Source of the DNA: Rossellomorea aquimaris
Lineage (GTDB): Bacteria; Bacillota; Bacilli; Bacillales; Bacillaceae_B
Length of the DNA: 64,000 bases
Assembly: GCF_000935355.1 (NCBI RefSeq)
Contig: NZ_JXZC01000001.1
Coordinates: 1,240,001-1,304,000 of the forward strand
Direction: 5' to 3'
Shown piece by piece: positions 35,960 to 40,014 of the stretch. The notes beneath the pieces are model-generated. The model was not told where the DNA came from, did not search any database, and worked only from the letters and a program-made list of their open reading frames with translations. Both the position numbers and the translations under genes were made by a program. Each line of letters opens with the position of its first letter. Within the stretch, counting starts at the first letter, position 1.

Positions 35960-37189
35960 CTAAAACAATGTTTCTTCCATCTTTTTCAATCGCTGTACTA
36001 AGTAAAATTGGCTGAACAAAATAGAGAATGACAGCCCAGCCAGGAGGGTGATCAATCCTTCCATCCAAGCCCCCTTAATGAATAAAGGAAGGGAAAATAT
36101 AACCGATTGGATCATCATCGCCTGATTCATGATTTTTTGGAAGGATGATTTCTTTAATTCCTTTGATACGGGATAAATGAGCACCCAAATTTTATAATCG
36201 AACCGTTTAAACAATGGTATGAGCTGAAAAGCAGTTAAATACAGAAACACCAAAGCCGTCAGAATGCTGAAAATAAAGGACGAATTTGAATAAATCAGCA
36301 AAACGCCGATCAGGGTCAATCGAAGATAAAGACCTGAATATTCACTTGTCCTCACCAAGGAGCGAAGATACAAATAGCGATAAGTAGATGCCTGGGAGAA
36401 TGATGTTTTCACCATTCCATCAAGCCATTTTCTCCTGTGCACCTTCCCTTTCAGCTTAGGTACATCTGTGAACATATTGGCGATTCGGTAGAAAATCAGC
36501 ATCCGCTGCTGCTCCAGGTCGATTAACAAATCCCATTTAAGATTTTTTCCTTTTGTTGACTGATAAAAGTAGAGCGCATATCCGATCATGATGGTGGCAA
36601 CGACCACGACCATCACGATAGCAGCGCCAGATAACACTAAAAAGACGAGAGCACCGCTTAATAAAAAGCGCATAAAGCTGTCGATCCAATGAGCTTCCTT
36701 TTCCTGAAATCGCAGCATAAACCAGCGTACATACAGGTTCCAGACCTTTAATGCTAAAATAAAGCCAAGTAACGGAAAGAAGCTTCCAAAGCTGCTGCCG
36801 GATACAGCTACATACATTGGCATCAGTGCAGCCAATACGAGCAGCTGAATATACGATTGAAACATGAAACTGATCCAGATGCATTTGGTGAAATAACGGG
36901 ATAGGCGCATTTCCAATGGCAAAAGAAACACGGCATCCGCTTCCCTAAGAAACGTATAAACGGGACTCCATGCCAGTAAGAGACCCAGGATCACCGCCAT
37001 GATGAGTGGTGCCGGAAAAGCCGGATCCAGGGTTTTCACCCACTGGTTATACGTATACGCTGCTCCTCCCAATGCAAAAATCAGGACAAATAATAAATGA
37101 TCGTTAAACATGTATTTCAAGTACTTTTGAAGCTCTTGATTATACTCTACGATTCGTTTCTTCCAAATACTTTCCACCTTATTCATCAT
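35960..37189 (-). CDS. ecsB: ABC transporter permease EcsB
   Basis: This 409-aa protein has about ten hydrophobic helices grouped in pairs and a long cytoplasmic middle segment (about 200-290), as in EcsB. With EcsA it forms an ABC exporter that affects protein secretion, intramembrane proteolysis by RasP, competence and sporulation in B. subtilis. Its ATG overlaps the end of ecsA by about 11 bases, and AAGGA lies 8 bases before it, so translation is coupled. Confidence 0.93.
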   Translation of the reverse strand: MMNKVESIWKKRIVEYNQELQKYLKYMFNDHLLFVLIFALGGAAYTYNQWVKTLDPAFPAPLIMAVILGLLLAWSPVYTFLREADAVFLLPLEMRLSRYFTKCIWISFMFQSYIQLLVLAALMPMYVAVSGSSFGSFFPLLGFILALKVWNLYVRWFMLRFQEKEAHWIDSFMRFLLSGALVFLVLSGAAIVMVVVVATIMIGYALYFYQSTKGKNLKWDLLIDLEQQRMLIFYRIANMFTDVPKLKGKVHRRKWLDGMVKTSFSQASTYRYLYLRSLVRTSEYSGLYLRLTLIGVLLIYSNSSFIFSILTALVFLYLTAFQLIPLFKRFDYKIWVLIYPVSKELKKSSFQKIMNQAMMIQSVIFSLPLFIKGAWMEGLITLLAGLSFSILFSQFYLVQRLKKMEETLF

Positions 37190-37922
37190 GGGATTCTTCC
37201 TTTGTCAGCTGGATATAAATATCATCTAAAGTCGCATCCGGCATGGAGAATTCCGAACGAAGTTCCAGAAGCGTACCTTTTGCGCAAATTTTCCCTTCAT
37301 GAAGGATGATGAATGAGTCACAATATCTTTCTGCCGTTGCTAAAATATGCGTAGACATCAGTATTCCAGCTCCACTTTGCTTCATTTCCTGCATCCAATC
37401 CAGCAGCGACTGAATCCCAAGTGGGTCTAATCCAACAAAAGGTTCGTCGATGATATAAAGACTGGGCTGAATGAGAAAAGCGCACATGATCATCACCTTT
37501 TGCTTCATCCCTTTTGAGAAGTGGGCAGGAAACCAGCTCATTTTTTTCTCCATACGAAAGGCCTTCAATAATTTATCAATTCTACCTTTATATTCAGACT
37601 CTGATAATCCATAAGCCATGGCTGTGAGTTTTAAGTGATCTTCAAGGGTAAGCTCATCATAAAGAATCGGCGTTTCCGGTATGTATGAAAACTGTTTTCG
37701 ATACTGATCGGCATCACTCTTCAAGGTATGACCATTTATGGACACTTCTCCTTGCTTGGGTTCCATGAGACCGATTATATGCTTGATAGTCGTACTTTTC
37801 CCTGCCCCGTTCAGGCCGATTAATCCGACAATTTCATTTGAATGTATGGAAAATGATATATCCTTTAATACCGGTTTTCGGGTATATCCGCCAACCAGGT
37901 GTTTGATTTCTAATAATGACAC
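37179..37922 (-). CDS. ecsA: ABC transporter ATP-binding protein EcsA
   Basis: This 247-aa ATPase is the same length as B. subtilis EcsA. It has Walker A GLNGAGKS, Q-loop IPETP, signature LSxG replaced by FSKGMKQKVMIM, Walker B LYIIDEPFVGLDPL and the switch His in STHILATAERYC. GTG at 37922 is chosen because it gives the SLLEIKHLVGGY start, and AAAGGA lies 11 bases before it. A TTG at 37931 is too close to the site. It leads the ecsABC operon. Confidence 0.93.
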   Translation of the reverse strand: MSLLEIKHLVGGYTRKPVLKDISFSIHSNEIVGLIGLNGAGKSTTIKHIIGLMEPKQGEVSINGHTLKSDADQYRKQFSYIPETPILYDELTLEDHLKLTAMAYGLSESEYKGRIDKLLKAFRMEKKMSWFPAHFSKGMKQKVMIMCAFLIQPSLYIIDEPFVGLDPLGIQSLLDWMQEMKQSGAGILMSTHILATAERYCDSFIILHEGKICAKGTLLELRSEFSMPDATLDDIYIQLTKEESHDE

Positions 37923-38056
37923 GAGCAGCAACGTCCTTTCTCTTCTACATGGTTTTCTCTATTTTATCAAAATTTCATGGTAAAGGCATTGTTAATCCAG
38001 TTTCTCATTCCACATTTTAACATTCATAACTCTACCCGATTTGCACATCATAATAT

Positions 38057-38510
38057 TTGAAGGGGCCAGCAATAAGAAAAAGGGGATGGTTGTTAAAGAC
38101 CAGCTAACCGATTTCACTATTGTTTGCGACTGTAAGGATTGTCGTCTTCTATAGTGAATGACACACTCACCATATTCATTTGTTCAAAAAATTGATAAAT
38201 GAGGTGTTTGTTAAAGCACACTTTGACTGAATCAACTTACTTTATTAGCTTATTAAGCTTAGGAGATAAGGGGATGGTCACATTGCACAAAGTCATTCAT
38301 GTTTCTAATGGTTTACACATATCATCCTTATAGCAAATGAGGTGTTTGTCCAAGACGGCTAACAGTTTCTATTGTCTGAATTGCTTAAATAGCGAAAAGA
38401 TAAGGGGATGGTCGCATTGAACAATTTTCATTCTAACCCAGAATGGTACACATTTCGAAGCTACTAGCGAATGAGGTGTTTATCAAAGAGAATGAAGCCT
38501 GACATATAAA
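38057..38510 (+). repeat. Degenerate tandem array with alternating SD-like motifs between ecsA and hit
   Basis: Two motif types alternate on the forward strand: ATGAGGTGTTTRTYMAAG (38199, 38337, 38471) and AAGGGGATGGTYR (38080, 38268, 38402), with a decayed copy TAAGGATTGTCGTC at 38132. Successive motifs are 54-71 bp apart, giving composite units of about 134-138 bp for the two clear copies. Possible small frames behind these motifs start with TTG: 38208-38333 (41 aa), 38346-38420 (24 aa, TGA overlapping the next TTG) and 38417-38467 (16 aa). A nested 38283-38333 frame also gives 16 aa. Their sequences are unrelated. The array ends in a forward-strand terminator at 38532. Confidence 0.7.
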
Positions 38511-38531
38511 CCTTTATAGTATTACCCCTTC

Positions 38532-38580
38532 AAGAAGAGAGGCAGGAAAATCGTTCCTGTCTCTTCTTCATTTATTTTCT
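38532..38580 (+). terminator. Forward-strand terminator closing the tandem array
   Basis: AAGAAGAGA(gg)CAGGAA/TTCCTGTCTCTTCTT forms a 15-bp stem with a two-base bulge and a 5-nt loop, followed by CATTTATTTTCTCTTTC. No T tract exists on the reverse strand. No annotated gene lies upstream on this strand, so it implies a forward transcript through the array. Confidence 0.65.
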
Positions 38581-38631
38581 CTTTCATGATAAAATACATA
38601 AAAATGCCATTAATGAAAGGTGGAGAAAGCA

Positions 38632-39054
38632 TTGAGTGACTGTATTTTTTGCAAGATTATCGACGGTGAAATTCCTGCTATGAAAGTGTACGAGGATGAG
38701 CATGTCCTTGCTTTCCTTGATATTAGCCAGGTGACGAAAGGGCATACATTACTTATTCCTAAAGTACATAAAGAAAATATCTATGAACTGACTCCTGATA
38801 TTGCAAGCCACCTTTTCTCTGTTGCACCTAAGATTGCTGACAGTATCAAGGCCGAGTTTAACCCAGTCGGAATGAACCTGTTAAGCAATGCAGGTGAAGA
38901 AGCAGGACAATCCGTCTTCCATTTCCACATGCATTTCATTCCCCGCTATGGCCAGGGAGATGGCTTTGGAGCCGTCTGGAAGACACATAATGATGACTAC
39001 AATTCAGAAGACCTGAAAGGAATAGCTGAATCCATTGCACAGCATCTTTCCTAA
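38632..39054 (+). CDS. hit: HIT-family nucleotide-binding protein Hit
   Basis: This 140-aa protein has CIFCKIIDGEIPAMKVYEDE at the N terminus and the histidine triad FHFHMHFIPRYG near residues 98-110. HIT proteins hydrolyse nucleotide conjugates such as Ap4A or AMP-lysine. A TTG at 38632 is preferred because AAAGGTGGAG lies 6-7 bases before it. A GTG at 38620 would lie within that site. It is divergent from ecsA across the unusual repeat region, as in B. subtilis hit-ecsA order. Confidence 0.92.
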   Translation: MSDCIFCKIIDGEIPAMKVYEDEHVLAFLDISQVTKGHTLLIPKVHKENIYELTPDIASHLFSVAPKIADSIKAEFNPVGMNLLSNAGEEAGQSVFHFHMHFIPRYGQGDGFGAVWKTHNDDYNSEDLKGIAESIAQHLS

Positions 39055-39060
39055 TAATTG

Positions 39061-39098
39061 AGCCTGATCCCGGAAGTTAAAGGGATCAGGCTTTTTTC
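39061..39098 (+). terminator. Terminator of hit
   Basis: AGCCTGATCC/GGATCAGGCT is a perfect 10-bp stem with a 12-nt loop followed by TTTTTTC. Confidence 0.85.
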
Positions 39099-39112
39099 AG
39101 AATAATTAATCT

Positions 39113-39140
39113 TTGACAACGATACTCGGTATGTTATAAT
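39113..39140 (+). promoter_or_regulatory. Strong sigma-A promoter of trpP
   Basis: The consensus -35 TTGACA (39113-39118) and -10 TATAAT (39135-39140) are separated by 16 bp with an upstream TG at 39132. Transcription would start near 39147, leaving a leader of about 77 nt that holds the TRAP site. Confidence 0.85.
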
Positions 39141-39188
39141 GTACCTATCTTTTCGCTAATGGCAACAGTGCACATTAGGTGAAGCAAA

Positions 39189-39221
39189 TAGTATAGTATA
39201 GTTTAGTTGAGGAGAGATGAG
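39189..39221 (+). promoter_or_regulatory. TRAP-binding site (seven NAG repeats) overlapping the trpP ribosome-binding site
   Basis: UAG, UAG, UAG, UAG, GAG, GAG and GAG start at 39189, 39194, 39199, 39204, 39209, 39214 and 39219, with exact 2-nt spacers. Less regular AAG and UAG copies occur just upstream (39182 and 39176). The last repeats overlap the Shine-Dalgarno. Tryptophan-bound TRAP wrapping this RNA would block translation, as known for B. subtilis trpP. Confidence 0.9.
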
Positions 39222-39223
39222 AA

Positions 39224-39760
39224 ATGAATACAAAAACACTTGTATCCCTGTCATTATTAGTAGGGATCGGAGCCGTCCTGCACACTGTGATCCCGGGAAT
39301 TTTCTTAGGAATGAAGCCGGACATGATGCTGACGATGATGTTTCTTGGCATTATATTATTTCCAGCCAAGAAGAACGTATTGTTATTAGGTTTATTAACA
39401 GGGGTTATTTCAGGACTAACAACTCAGTTCCCTGGTGGATTCTTACCTAACCTGATCGATAAGCCGATCACGGCATTCGTTTTTTACGGACTTTTCCTGG
39501 CCACTAAAAAAATCACTCGTTCACTTGTAGGAGCTTCTGTTCTGACAGCTATTGGTACACTCGTATCAGGAAGTGTCTTCTTACTTTCTGCTTATGTGAT
39601 TGTCGGTCTGCCTGGAGCATTTTTTGCTTTATTTGCAGCAGTCGTACTTCCGGCTACACTAGTTAACGCTGGAGCAATGTTTGTGGTATATCCAATCATT
39701 AACGGGATTTTAAAACGTTCAACCATTCGAGAAGCTGTTACAACAGAACAGCTATCCTAA
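39224..39760 (+). CDS. trpP: Tryptophan transporter TrpP
   Basis: This 178-aa protein has about five to six helices and resembles B. subtilis TrpP (YhaG, 172 aa). Shared features include a PDMMLTMMFLGIILFP segment, the FPGGFLPNLIDKPITAFVF loop and the C-terminal LPATLVNAGAMFVVYPIINGIL. It imports tryptophan. The leader contains the TRAP-binding triplets, so translation is expected to fall when tryptophan is plentiful. The trp regulator genes themselves (mtrB) are not in the window. Confidence 0.92.
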   Translation: MNTKTLVSLSLLVGIGAVLHTVIPGIFLGMKPDMMLTMMFLGIILFPAKKNVLLLGLLTGVISGLTTQFPGGFLPNLIDKPITAFVFYGLFLATKKITRSLVGASVLTAIGTLVSGSVFLLSAYVIVGLPGAFFALFAAVVLPATLVNAGAMFVVYPIINGILKRSTIREAVTTEQLS

Positions 39761-39774
39761 ATTAGATCATAGTA

Positions 39775-39822
39775 AAGCCCTCCATTTAATATGCTACCGG
39801 CATTAAATGGAGGGCTTTCTTA
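39775..39822. terminator. Terminator of trpP and the following small gene
   Basis: AAAGCCCTCCATTTAAT/ATTAAATGGAGGGCTTT is a perfect 17-bp stem with an 11-nt loop, followed by CTTACTT. Confidence 0.8.
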
Positions 39823-40014
39823 CTTGACTGCAACCCACAAGAGTACCCCGATTAAAAAAGTGATCACCCCACCGGATCCCAATATGGCAGCACGCTTTTT
39901 CAATATATTCTTAGGAGGATACATTCCCGGCCTTTGAATGGTAATGAAGTTATACACCATACTTAGAAATAATACGCCACAGAGAGCAAAGAACCCAAAG
40001 ATTATCCCGTCCAT
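39820..40014 (-). CDS. Small membrane protein, 64 aa
   Basis: Two hydrophobic helices (about 1-22 and 45-63) flank a basic loop (RPGMYPPKNILKKRAAIL). GGAGGGGG precedes the ATG at 40014. It is convergent with trpP, and the shared terminator overlaps its end. I recognise no domain. It resembles the many short two-helix proteins of Bacillaceae of unknown function. Confidence 0.65.
   Translation of the reverse strand: MDGIIFGFFALCGVLFLSMVYNFITIQRPGMYPPKNILKKRAAILGSGGVITFLIGVLLWVAVK

Follow-up and report, generated by a model that had tools for sequence, protein, structure and literature searches.

A small RNA encoded between hinT and ecsA has been described in bacilli. The accessible parts of the published reports place Bvs196 of B. 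velezensis in this gap, with a length of ~294 nt and a Northern blot signal of an independent RNA of ~300 nt (PMC9147052). A Bvs196 promoter fusion is switched on in the forespore and depends on sigmaF and mainly on sigmaG; the RNA binds spo0A and sspN-tlp in vitro, with a micromolar Kd for spo0A; and its deletion mutant has altered spore resistance, an effect shown for B. velezensis only (PMC9147052). The B. subtilis homolog is called S357 in one place of the same report and S547 in another (PMC9147052). In B. subtilis the hinT-ecsA gap encodes ncr1670, which occupies 1077037-1077292 and is 256 nt long with an Hfq enrichment of 2.77 (PMC3574147) and has been equated with S357 (PMC4410918). 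Repeats and mini-ORFs go unmentioned in the accessible text of PMC9147052, where the terms ORF, open reading frame, peptide and Shine have 0 occurrences. The sRNA itself is already known; the new part is its repeat and mini-ORF architecture, of which we found no report for an S357-type sRNA in the open-access papers searched.

Other known systems offer partial likenesses. CsrB/RsmZ-type sponge RNAs carry one short G-rich motif in many copies within one sRNA and titrate their partner. SR1/SR1P is a dual-function sRNA with one conserved peptide, and lambda bar is a single translation-inhibiting minigene of about two codons.

Comparison between genomes identifies the ecsA-hit gap of our window, the whole 64,000-nt stretch of Rossellomorea aquimaris DNA that was analysed, as the predicted site of an independent sRNA gene on the forward strand, the Rossellomorea ortholog of S357/ncr1670/Bvs196. 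By its gene neighbours and the published positions, the locus matches the family's place between hit/hinT and ecsA. The RNA is assigned to the known family because it occupies the same hinT-ecsA gap as Bvs196 and ncr1670 and because copies of one of its repeated elements, motif A, lie in the gaps of the B. subtilis group. Three A copies each are found in the hinT-ecsA gap of B. inaquosorum, B. tequilensis, B. mojavensis and B. nakamurai; and motif A, a closing stem and a -10-like element share the gap in L161, L164, L183, L178, L171 and L190, the kinship to S357/Bvs196 being judged on such B. subtilis-group loci rather than on the sequences of B. subtilis 168 or B. velezensis. The putative promoter and the terminator also have the same orientation. 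By contrast, the S357/Bvs196 RNA measures 256-294 nt and the Rossellomorea RNA ~510 nt, and the latter has four A-type and two B elements where the B. subtilis-group loci that we viewed have, by eye, 2-3 A and no B. Rfam release 15 gave no covariance-model match at E <= 1 within 36500-40000 of the window, and nothing at gathering score in L161, L183, L109, L095 or L188. The features of the gap and its flanks are as follows.

37179-37931, minus strand: ecsA, flanking the gap
38023-38052, plus strand: putative promoter, sigmaF/sigmaG-like by its resemblance to the consensus (TTCATA 38023-38028, 17 nt, CATCATA 38046-38052)
38059-38065, plus strand: GAAGGGG, 5' arm of an end-to-end stem pairing with 38525-38531, and likely the 5' end of the RNA
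38080-38154, plus strand: element A0, AAGGGGATGGTTGTTAAAGAC, frame from ATG 38086 to the stop at 38152-38154, MVVKDQLTDFTIVCDCKDCRLL
38197-38230, plus strand: element A1, AAATGAGGTGTTTGTTAAAG, GTG frame 38204-38230, MFVKAHFD, stop TGA
38268-38333, plus strand: element B1, extended Shine-Dalgarno (SD) sequence AAGGGGATGGTC at 38268-38279, TTG frame 38283-38333, 16 aa, stop TAG
38335-38362, plus strand: element A2, AAATGAGGTGTTTGTCCAAGA, GTG frame 38342-38362, MFVQDG, stop TAA
38402-38467, plus strand: element B2, extended SD AAGGGGATGGTC at 38402-38413, TTG frame 38417-38467, 16 aa, stop TAG
38469-38502, plus strand: element A3, GAATGAGGTGTTTATCAAAGA, GTG frame 38476-38502, MFIKENEA, stop TGA
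38525-38531, plus strand: CCCCTTC, 3' arm of the end-to-end stem, just before the terminator
38537-38570, plus strand: intrinsic terminator found in the sequence, stem 38537-38565 plus tail
From 38638: hit, 138 aa, flanking the gap

Motif A is AAATGAGGTGTTTRTYAAAGA, with the consensus AAATGAGGTG.. over 464 distinct copies, and motif B is AAGGGGATGGTNNNN-TTG. Part of this layout had been anticipated by the original prediction, made from the sequence alone. The sequence does carry ATGAGGTGTTT at 38199, 38337 and 38471 and AAGGGGATGG at 38080, 38268 and 38402; the predicted units of ~134-138 bp reappear as two sets of direct repeats, D1 with three copies 138 and 134 bp apart and D2 with two copies 134 bp apart; 38283 and 38417 are the starts of the two 16-aa TTG frames; and the forward terminator is present, with its stem at 38537-38565. 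The copy at 38080, our A0, is a hybrid in which a B-like SD is followed by A-like codons; other species read ACGGGGTGGTTGTTAAAGACC here, and its ATG is GTG in their version of the element. A supposed decayed copy at 38132 is absent from both the direct repeats and the motif-A model matches. The TTG frames of 41 and 24 aa exist, but each lies inside a longer ATG frame (44 and 27 aa), and they are unconstrained.

The anatomy of the family, as predicted from many loci, is well supported: the ends are joined by a covarying stem, a terminator follows, and A is usually present in 2-4 copies, often with B between them. A CATNHTA or ATTCTAA element lies 3-9 nt before a GWAGRRG start in 158/202 loci with at least two A copies, against an expectation of 0.1 from shuffled upstream DNA, although the loci are related and hence do not amount to 158 independent cases. 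In other genera the arms of the stem change together (GAAGAAGGAAAA/TTTTCCTTCTTC, GTAGAGGAA/TTCCTCTGC, GAGGAAGCGATG/CATTGCTTCCTC). In an anchored search with 88 distinct 5' arms, drawn from the 167 of 206 loci that could be anchored, the locus's own 3' arm beat the median foreign arm in 70/88 and stood at or above the 95th percentile in 25/88. This search replaced an unanchored one, in which GGGGATGGTT/AATCGTTCCT won as closing stem in 18 loci, a misassignment in many Rossellomorea loci. The RNA folds better than its shuffles (z -4.73, or -3.86 minus the terminator), which is as expected of an ordinary sRNA.

How widely is the motif spread? A strict A pattern matched at least 91/249 genomes of the order, against 1/249 for the reversed pattern. 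In our own genome the three A copies of the window are the best matches to a motif-A model (E 2.7e-4 to 1.0e-3), the next two having E values of 0.48 and 0.86. At E < 0.01 the model matched 90/150 genomes of the order, a hand count of the table with a model that includes sequences from some of the scanned genomes. In a separate genome scan, the matches listed include Metabacillus, Priestia, Cytobacillus, Neobacillus, Bacillus and others. The gene for sigmaG, sigG, was above cut-off in 146/150 genomes, and the three without a proper sigG (best E about 1e-37) all lack a motif-A match at E < 0.01. This co-occurrence test is weak because 60/150 genomes in all have no match at that cut-off; the same 60, set against sigG in 146, imply that the RNA is not needed for sporulation.

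Gene order is kept as well. The hit gene was found in 61/61 related genomes by a search with the Hit protein, and comparison of the ecsA-hit gap, as the original prediction had suggested, revealed at least one motif A upstream of hit in 48 of the 50 loci, out of these 61, whose upstream DNA was examined. Both exceptions have sigG and lack the RNA upstream of hit: in L055 the ecsA-hit gap is only 145 nt, and in L052 there is no ecsA at that place. Over 206 loci, A is present in 3 copies in 130, 4 in 36, 2 in 21, and 0, 1 or 5-9 in 19, the loci with six or more including tandem copies of the whole gene; B is present in 2 copies in 116, 1 in 58, 0 in 28 and 3-4 in 4. The whole RNA gene stands in two or three tandem copies in L043, L071, L114 and L101 (6-9 A in the gap). 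Several gaps hold extra sequence, upstream of the RNA in L006, L011, L012, L014, L015, L016, L017 and L020 and downstream in L027; it contains a GC-rich segment (..GCGGAAAGCGAGCACCTGCAGCGGAAATCAACCAGCACTCACTTC.. in several) and, judged by eye alone, resembles a dispersed repeat.

Among 59 strict-pattern loci (L058-L117 minus L107), 50 adjoin hit or ecsA, four are second loci away from both genes (L074, L109, L095, L100), and four (L069, L070, L098, L104) are likely chance matches that appear, by eye, to lie inside coding genes. L113, left unassigned, has a lone, apparently intergenic match at ~952 on the reverse strand, without an array. The second loci in L074 (619-912) and L109 (674-968) are of Priestia type, with four A, one B with ATG, and their own closing stem and terminator. 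The two-A array of L095 (698-1200), from B. ectoiniformans, adjoins a gene for small acid-soluble spore protein H (PF08141, E 1.5e-24), and L100 has one A copy in a neighbourhood that by eye resembles that of L095.

Both elements look like sites of ribosome engagement, and we infer that translation could start at B and, within A, in the frame of the GTG. In element B, AAGGGGATGGTC can pair over an extended length, though imperfectly, with the 16S tail GGATCACCTCCTTTCT, which is present in 3/3 complete congeneric genomes and was not found in the draft genome of our own strain. The duplex of AAGGGGATGGTC with the tail is calculated at -13.6 kcal/mol; a perfect SD would reach -20.7, and motif A gives -10.3. 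At a fixed spacing behind this SD the codon is TTG in 203, ATG in 14 and GTG in 2 (219/228 distinct copies), and in a hold-out set it is TTG in 25, ATG in 7 and AAA in 2 (32/34 NTG). A looser search for B gave NTG in 204/248 sites, the rest being largely A0 hybrids with AAA or stray matches. Such swaps between TTG, ATG and GTG at one position are the substitution pattern of a start codon, and we read B as a putative initiation site.

Motif A is a stranger case. It carries a GAGGTG core, so that the SD-like core overlaps its own GTG, and this GTG is nearly invariant (472/479 when GGTG was not forced at extraction), which appears unlike the behaviour of an ordinary start codon. An SD-like 4-mer lies 5-15 nt upstream of the GTG in only 6/509 copies, and in 336/509 a stop precedes any other NTG in the GTG frame. 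Spacing directed by the SD-like core would place a codon AAA/GCA in the P site. The changes within the motif are codon-like in the GTG frame (F/S, V/I/T, K/A/Q, D/E/G). In a mutual-information analysis of the 464 distinct copies, extracted with GGTG forced, 6 of the 10 strongest column pairs fall within codons of that frame. A hairpin in motif A with UGUY/RACA stems, plausible by eye, had no mutual-information support at its candidate pairs in these copies and was dropped.

A further constraint concerns where the frames end. We counted frames as open or closed to the next element and compared them with shuffled spacers, using one representative per cluster at 75% identity. Motif A has its GTG frame open in 29/247 (expected 78.5±6.9), against 80 and 90 for the other two frames (expected 79.7 and 81.7). 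The B frame is open in 12/123 (expected 42.8±5.1), against 43 and 38 (expected 43.8 and 46.1). Divided by class, A before B is open in 14/127 (expected 47.1), A before A in 16/112 (30.4) and the last A of an array in 8/102 (49.5). At 60% identity the figures are 9/91 for A before B (expected 33.1), 8/79 for the last A (39.4) and 9/96 for B (33.2). The excess of closure for A before A is weak, and at 60% identity it is no longer frame-specific (15/88 open, expected 22.7; other frames 16 and 27, expected 23.3 and 23.9). In L161, L164 and L183, all of the B. subtilis group, the frame of the last A runs open through 55, 56 and 37 codons.

Where an A lies downstream of B (233 distinct B frames), the frame stops ahead of A in 223, at a TGA inside it in 10, and runs past it in none; shuffled spacers predict 70.1 open, and with counting from codon 4 the other two frames are open in 86 and 72. 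These stops fall 4-48 nt ahead of most following A motifs, and at 7 nt in 33/233. For a hold-out, 40 further loci were fetched after the rule had been fixed and spacers like those already used were removed; in the 38 cases left the predicted frames are open in 5 (expected 14.4) and the other frames in 14 and 19 (expected 15.2 and 15.3). In the second loci (L074, L109, L095, L100), 13/13 frames end within 21 codons, and 9/9 frames with an element after them close before that element. Comparison across genomes thus shows the family, its predicted anatomy and the frame constraint.

This result corrects the reading of the frames. The original prediction rightly singled out the TTG frames of B; through A, the constrained frame is that of GTG and not of ATG AGG, since translation from the AUG inside AAATGAGG would use a frame that is at chance (80/247 open, expected 79.7). 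The closed GTG and NTG frames likewise led us to reject an SD decoy without translation as a full explanation. The suggestion that the same motifs, read on the opposite strand, are C-rich loops that bind SDs is without support, as it is the forward strand that carries the promoter-like element, the terminator, the closing stem and the frame constraint.

What the frames encode seems to matter little. Differences from the nearest relative, counted over the three codon positions outside the motifs, are 216/205/254 for A and 110/110/132 for B, and no purifying selection on the peptide is seen in these near-even changes. As raw counts, codon changes are nonsynonymous and synonymous in 424 and 108 cases for A and in 209 and 67 for B. 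The first codons of the A frame are restricted, with V/I/T/A in 448/464 at the codon at 10-12 and D/E/G in 409/464 at 16-18. With peptides so little conserved, starting and early stopping seem to be selected rather than the peptide, and the frames may be kept for starting and stopping and not for their product. The phrase "tandem sRNA or peptide array" in the original prediction is close to the mark: the locus belongs to a known sRNA family and its motifs head short frames, whose peptides are not kept.

Set beside the other known systems, the RNA shares some features and differs in others. Like the CsrB/RsmZ sponges it has a G-rich motif in many copies, suggesting titration of a partner; unlike them it keeps no ANGGA, its motif being a match to the anti-SD with a constrained reading frame behind it. 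Repeated ANGGA in hairpin loops, the hallmark of a CsrA sponge, was not found in the A consensus (AAATGAGGTG..) or in B (AAGGGGATGG), and there is no stem covariation at A. With SR1/SR1P it shares a translated part, here a predicted one, and differs in having several unconserved peptides. Lambda bar-type minigenes likewise combine a strong SD with a very short frame and tie up translation components; they are single minigenes of about two codons, whereas this is a conserved chromosomal array.

We hypothesize that the RNA acts as a decoy in the forespore. It would be transcribed forward from the sigmaF/sigmaG-like promoter to the terminator and would close on itself through the stem between its ends, with two kinds of ribosome-engaging element alternating along it. 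At B, a frame of ~12 codons would open at a TTG, replaced in some species by ATG or GTG, that stands at a fixed distance behind an extended SD; at A, the GAGGTG core would head a frame of ~10 codons in phase with its GTG. Ribosomes would load again and again, make throw-away peptides and terminate before overrunning the neighbouring element, and late in the forespore the RNA would serve as a decoy that engages ribosomes, perhaps while translation winds down. Read from sequence, this whole account, a forespore sRNA that engages ribosomes on alternating A and B mini-ORFs with a late decoy role, has in our judgement a little less than an even chance of being right. In its accessible portions, a ribosome-profiling study of sporulation reports that translation efficiency falls late and that ribosome coverage is high at the SDs of late sigmaK and sigmaG genes (PMC11339384). 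The translation silencing on which the decoy idea leans is described there in the mother cell, not the forespore, and no discussion of an S357-type RNA was seen in those portions (PMC11339384).

A classical base-pairing sRNA is the alternative that we take most seriously, although we think it unlikely. Its targets would be mRNAs, spo0A and sspN-tlp among them; the GAGGTG and GGGGATG motifs would serve protein binding or pairing and attract ribosomes by accident, and stops would be selected only to keep accidental translation from unfolding the RNA. The in vitro binding to both mRNAs and the changed spore resistance of the deletion mutant (PMC9147052), the Hfq enrichment of 2.77 for ncr1670 (PMC3574147) and the non-random folding all fit such a role, but the reported Kd for spo0A is micromolar (PMC9147052), and B's extended SD, with TTG, ATG or GTG at fixed spacing, is left unexplained. 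Rather improbable, in our view, is a translation-coupled sensor, in which translating one mini-ORF would open or close the next element and the supply of ribosomes or charged tRNA would set the shape or stability of the RNA. The short distance from B stops to the following A would suit it, as would the pairing of A with its upstream spacer, which is slightly better than with shuffled spacers (mean z -0.46 after B, t -5.7), and a predicted fold of the window's RNA that joins A2 to the end of frame B1. However, the pairing bias is significant but small, so that upstream sequestration of A was rejected as a general rule; no single hairpin is kept between genera, and no pair covariation is seen at motif A.

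We give little credence to the micro-peptides themselves as the product: the restriction of the first A-frame codons speaks for it, yet beyond these codons changes are almost even over the positions, nonsynonymous changes far exceed synonymous ones, and peptide lengths vary. Very unlikely is an attenuator leader of hit. The terminator does sit just upstream of that gene, but the same design occurs at the four second loci, where neither hit nor ecsA adjoins, the gene is copied in tandem in L043 and L071, and the B. velezensis Northern shows an independent RNA of ~300 nt (PMC9147052). Decayed duplications without function, also raised in the original prediction, have next to no chance of being correct; the units are imperfect repeats, but many genera of the order share the motif sequence, the element order and the closing of the right frames, and comparison has already refuted this explanation.

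If the ribosome-engaging decoy is the right reading, its broader significance, which we put forward tentatively and with more doubt than confidence, is that a sporulation RNA filed as non-coding may be a chain of minimal translation units. Two initiation elements would have been kept over the Bacillales, each frame having to end before the next; the RNA would act as a natural trap in which initiating ribosomes are parked or drained while the forespore enters dormancy; and A, with a GTG inside its SD-like core, would be an unusual translation start. How a spore entering dormancy shuts down translation and stores its ribosomes is still an open question, and a string of ribosome-engaging mini-ORFs, if real, would give it a gene that is testable in B. 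subtilis. The analysis also gives concrete positions to inspect in existing ribosome-profiling data from sporulation. If true, it would mean that a "non-coding" RNA can be shaped by selection on where ribosomes start and stop, without selection on any peptide.
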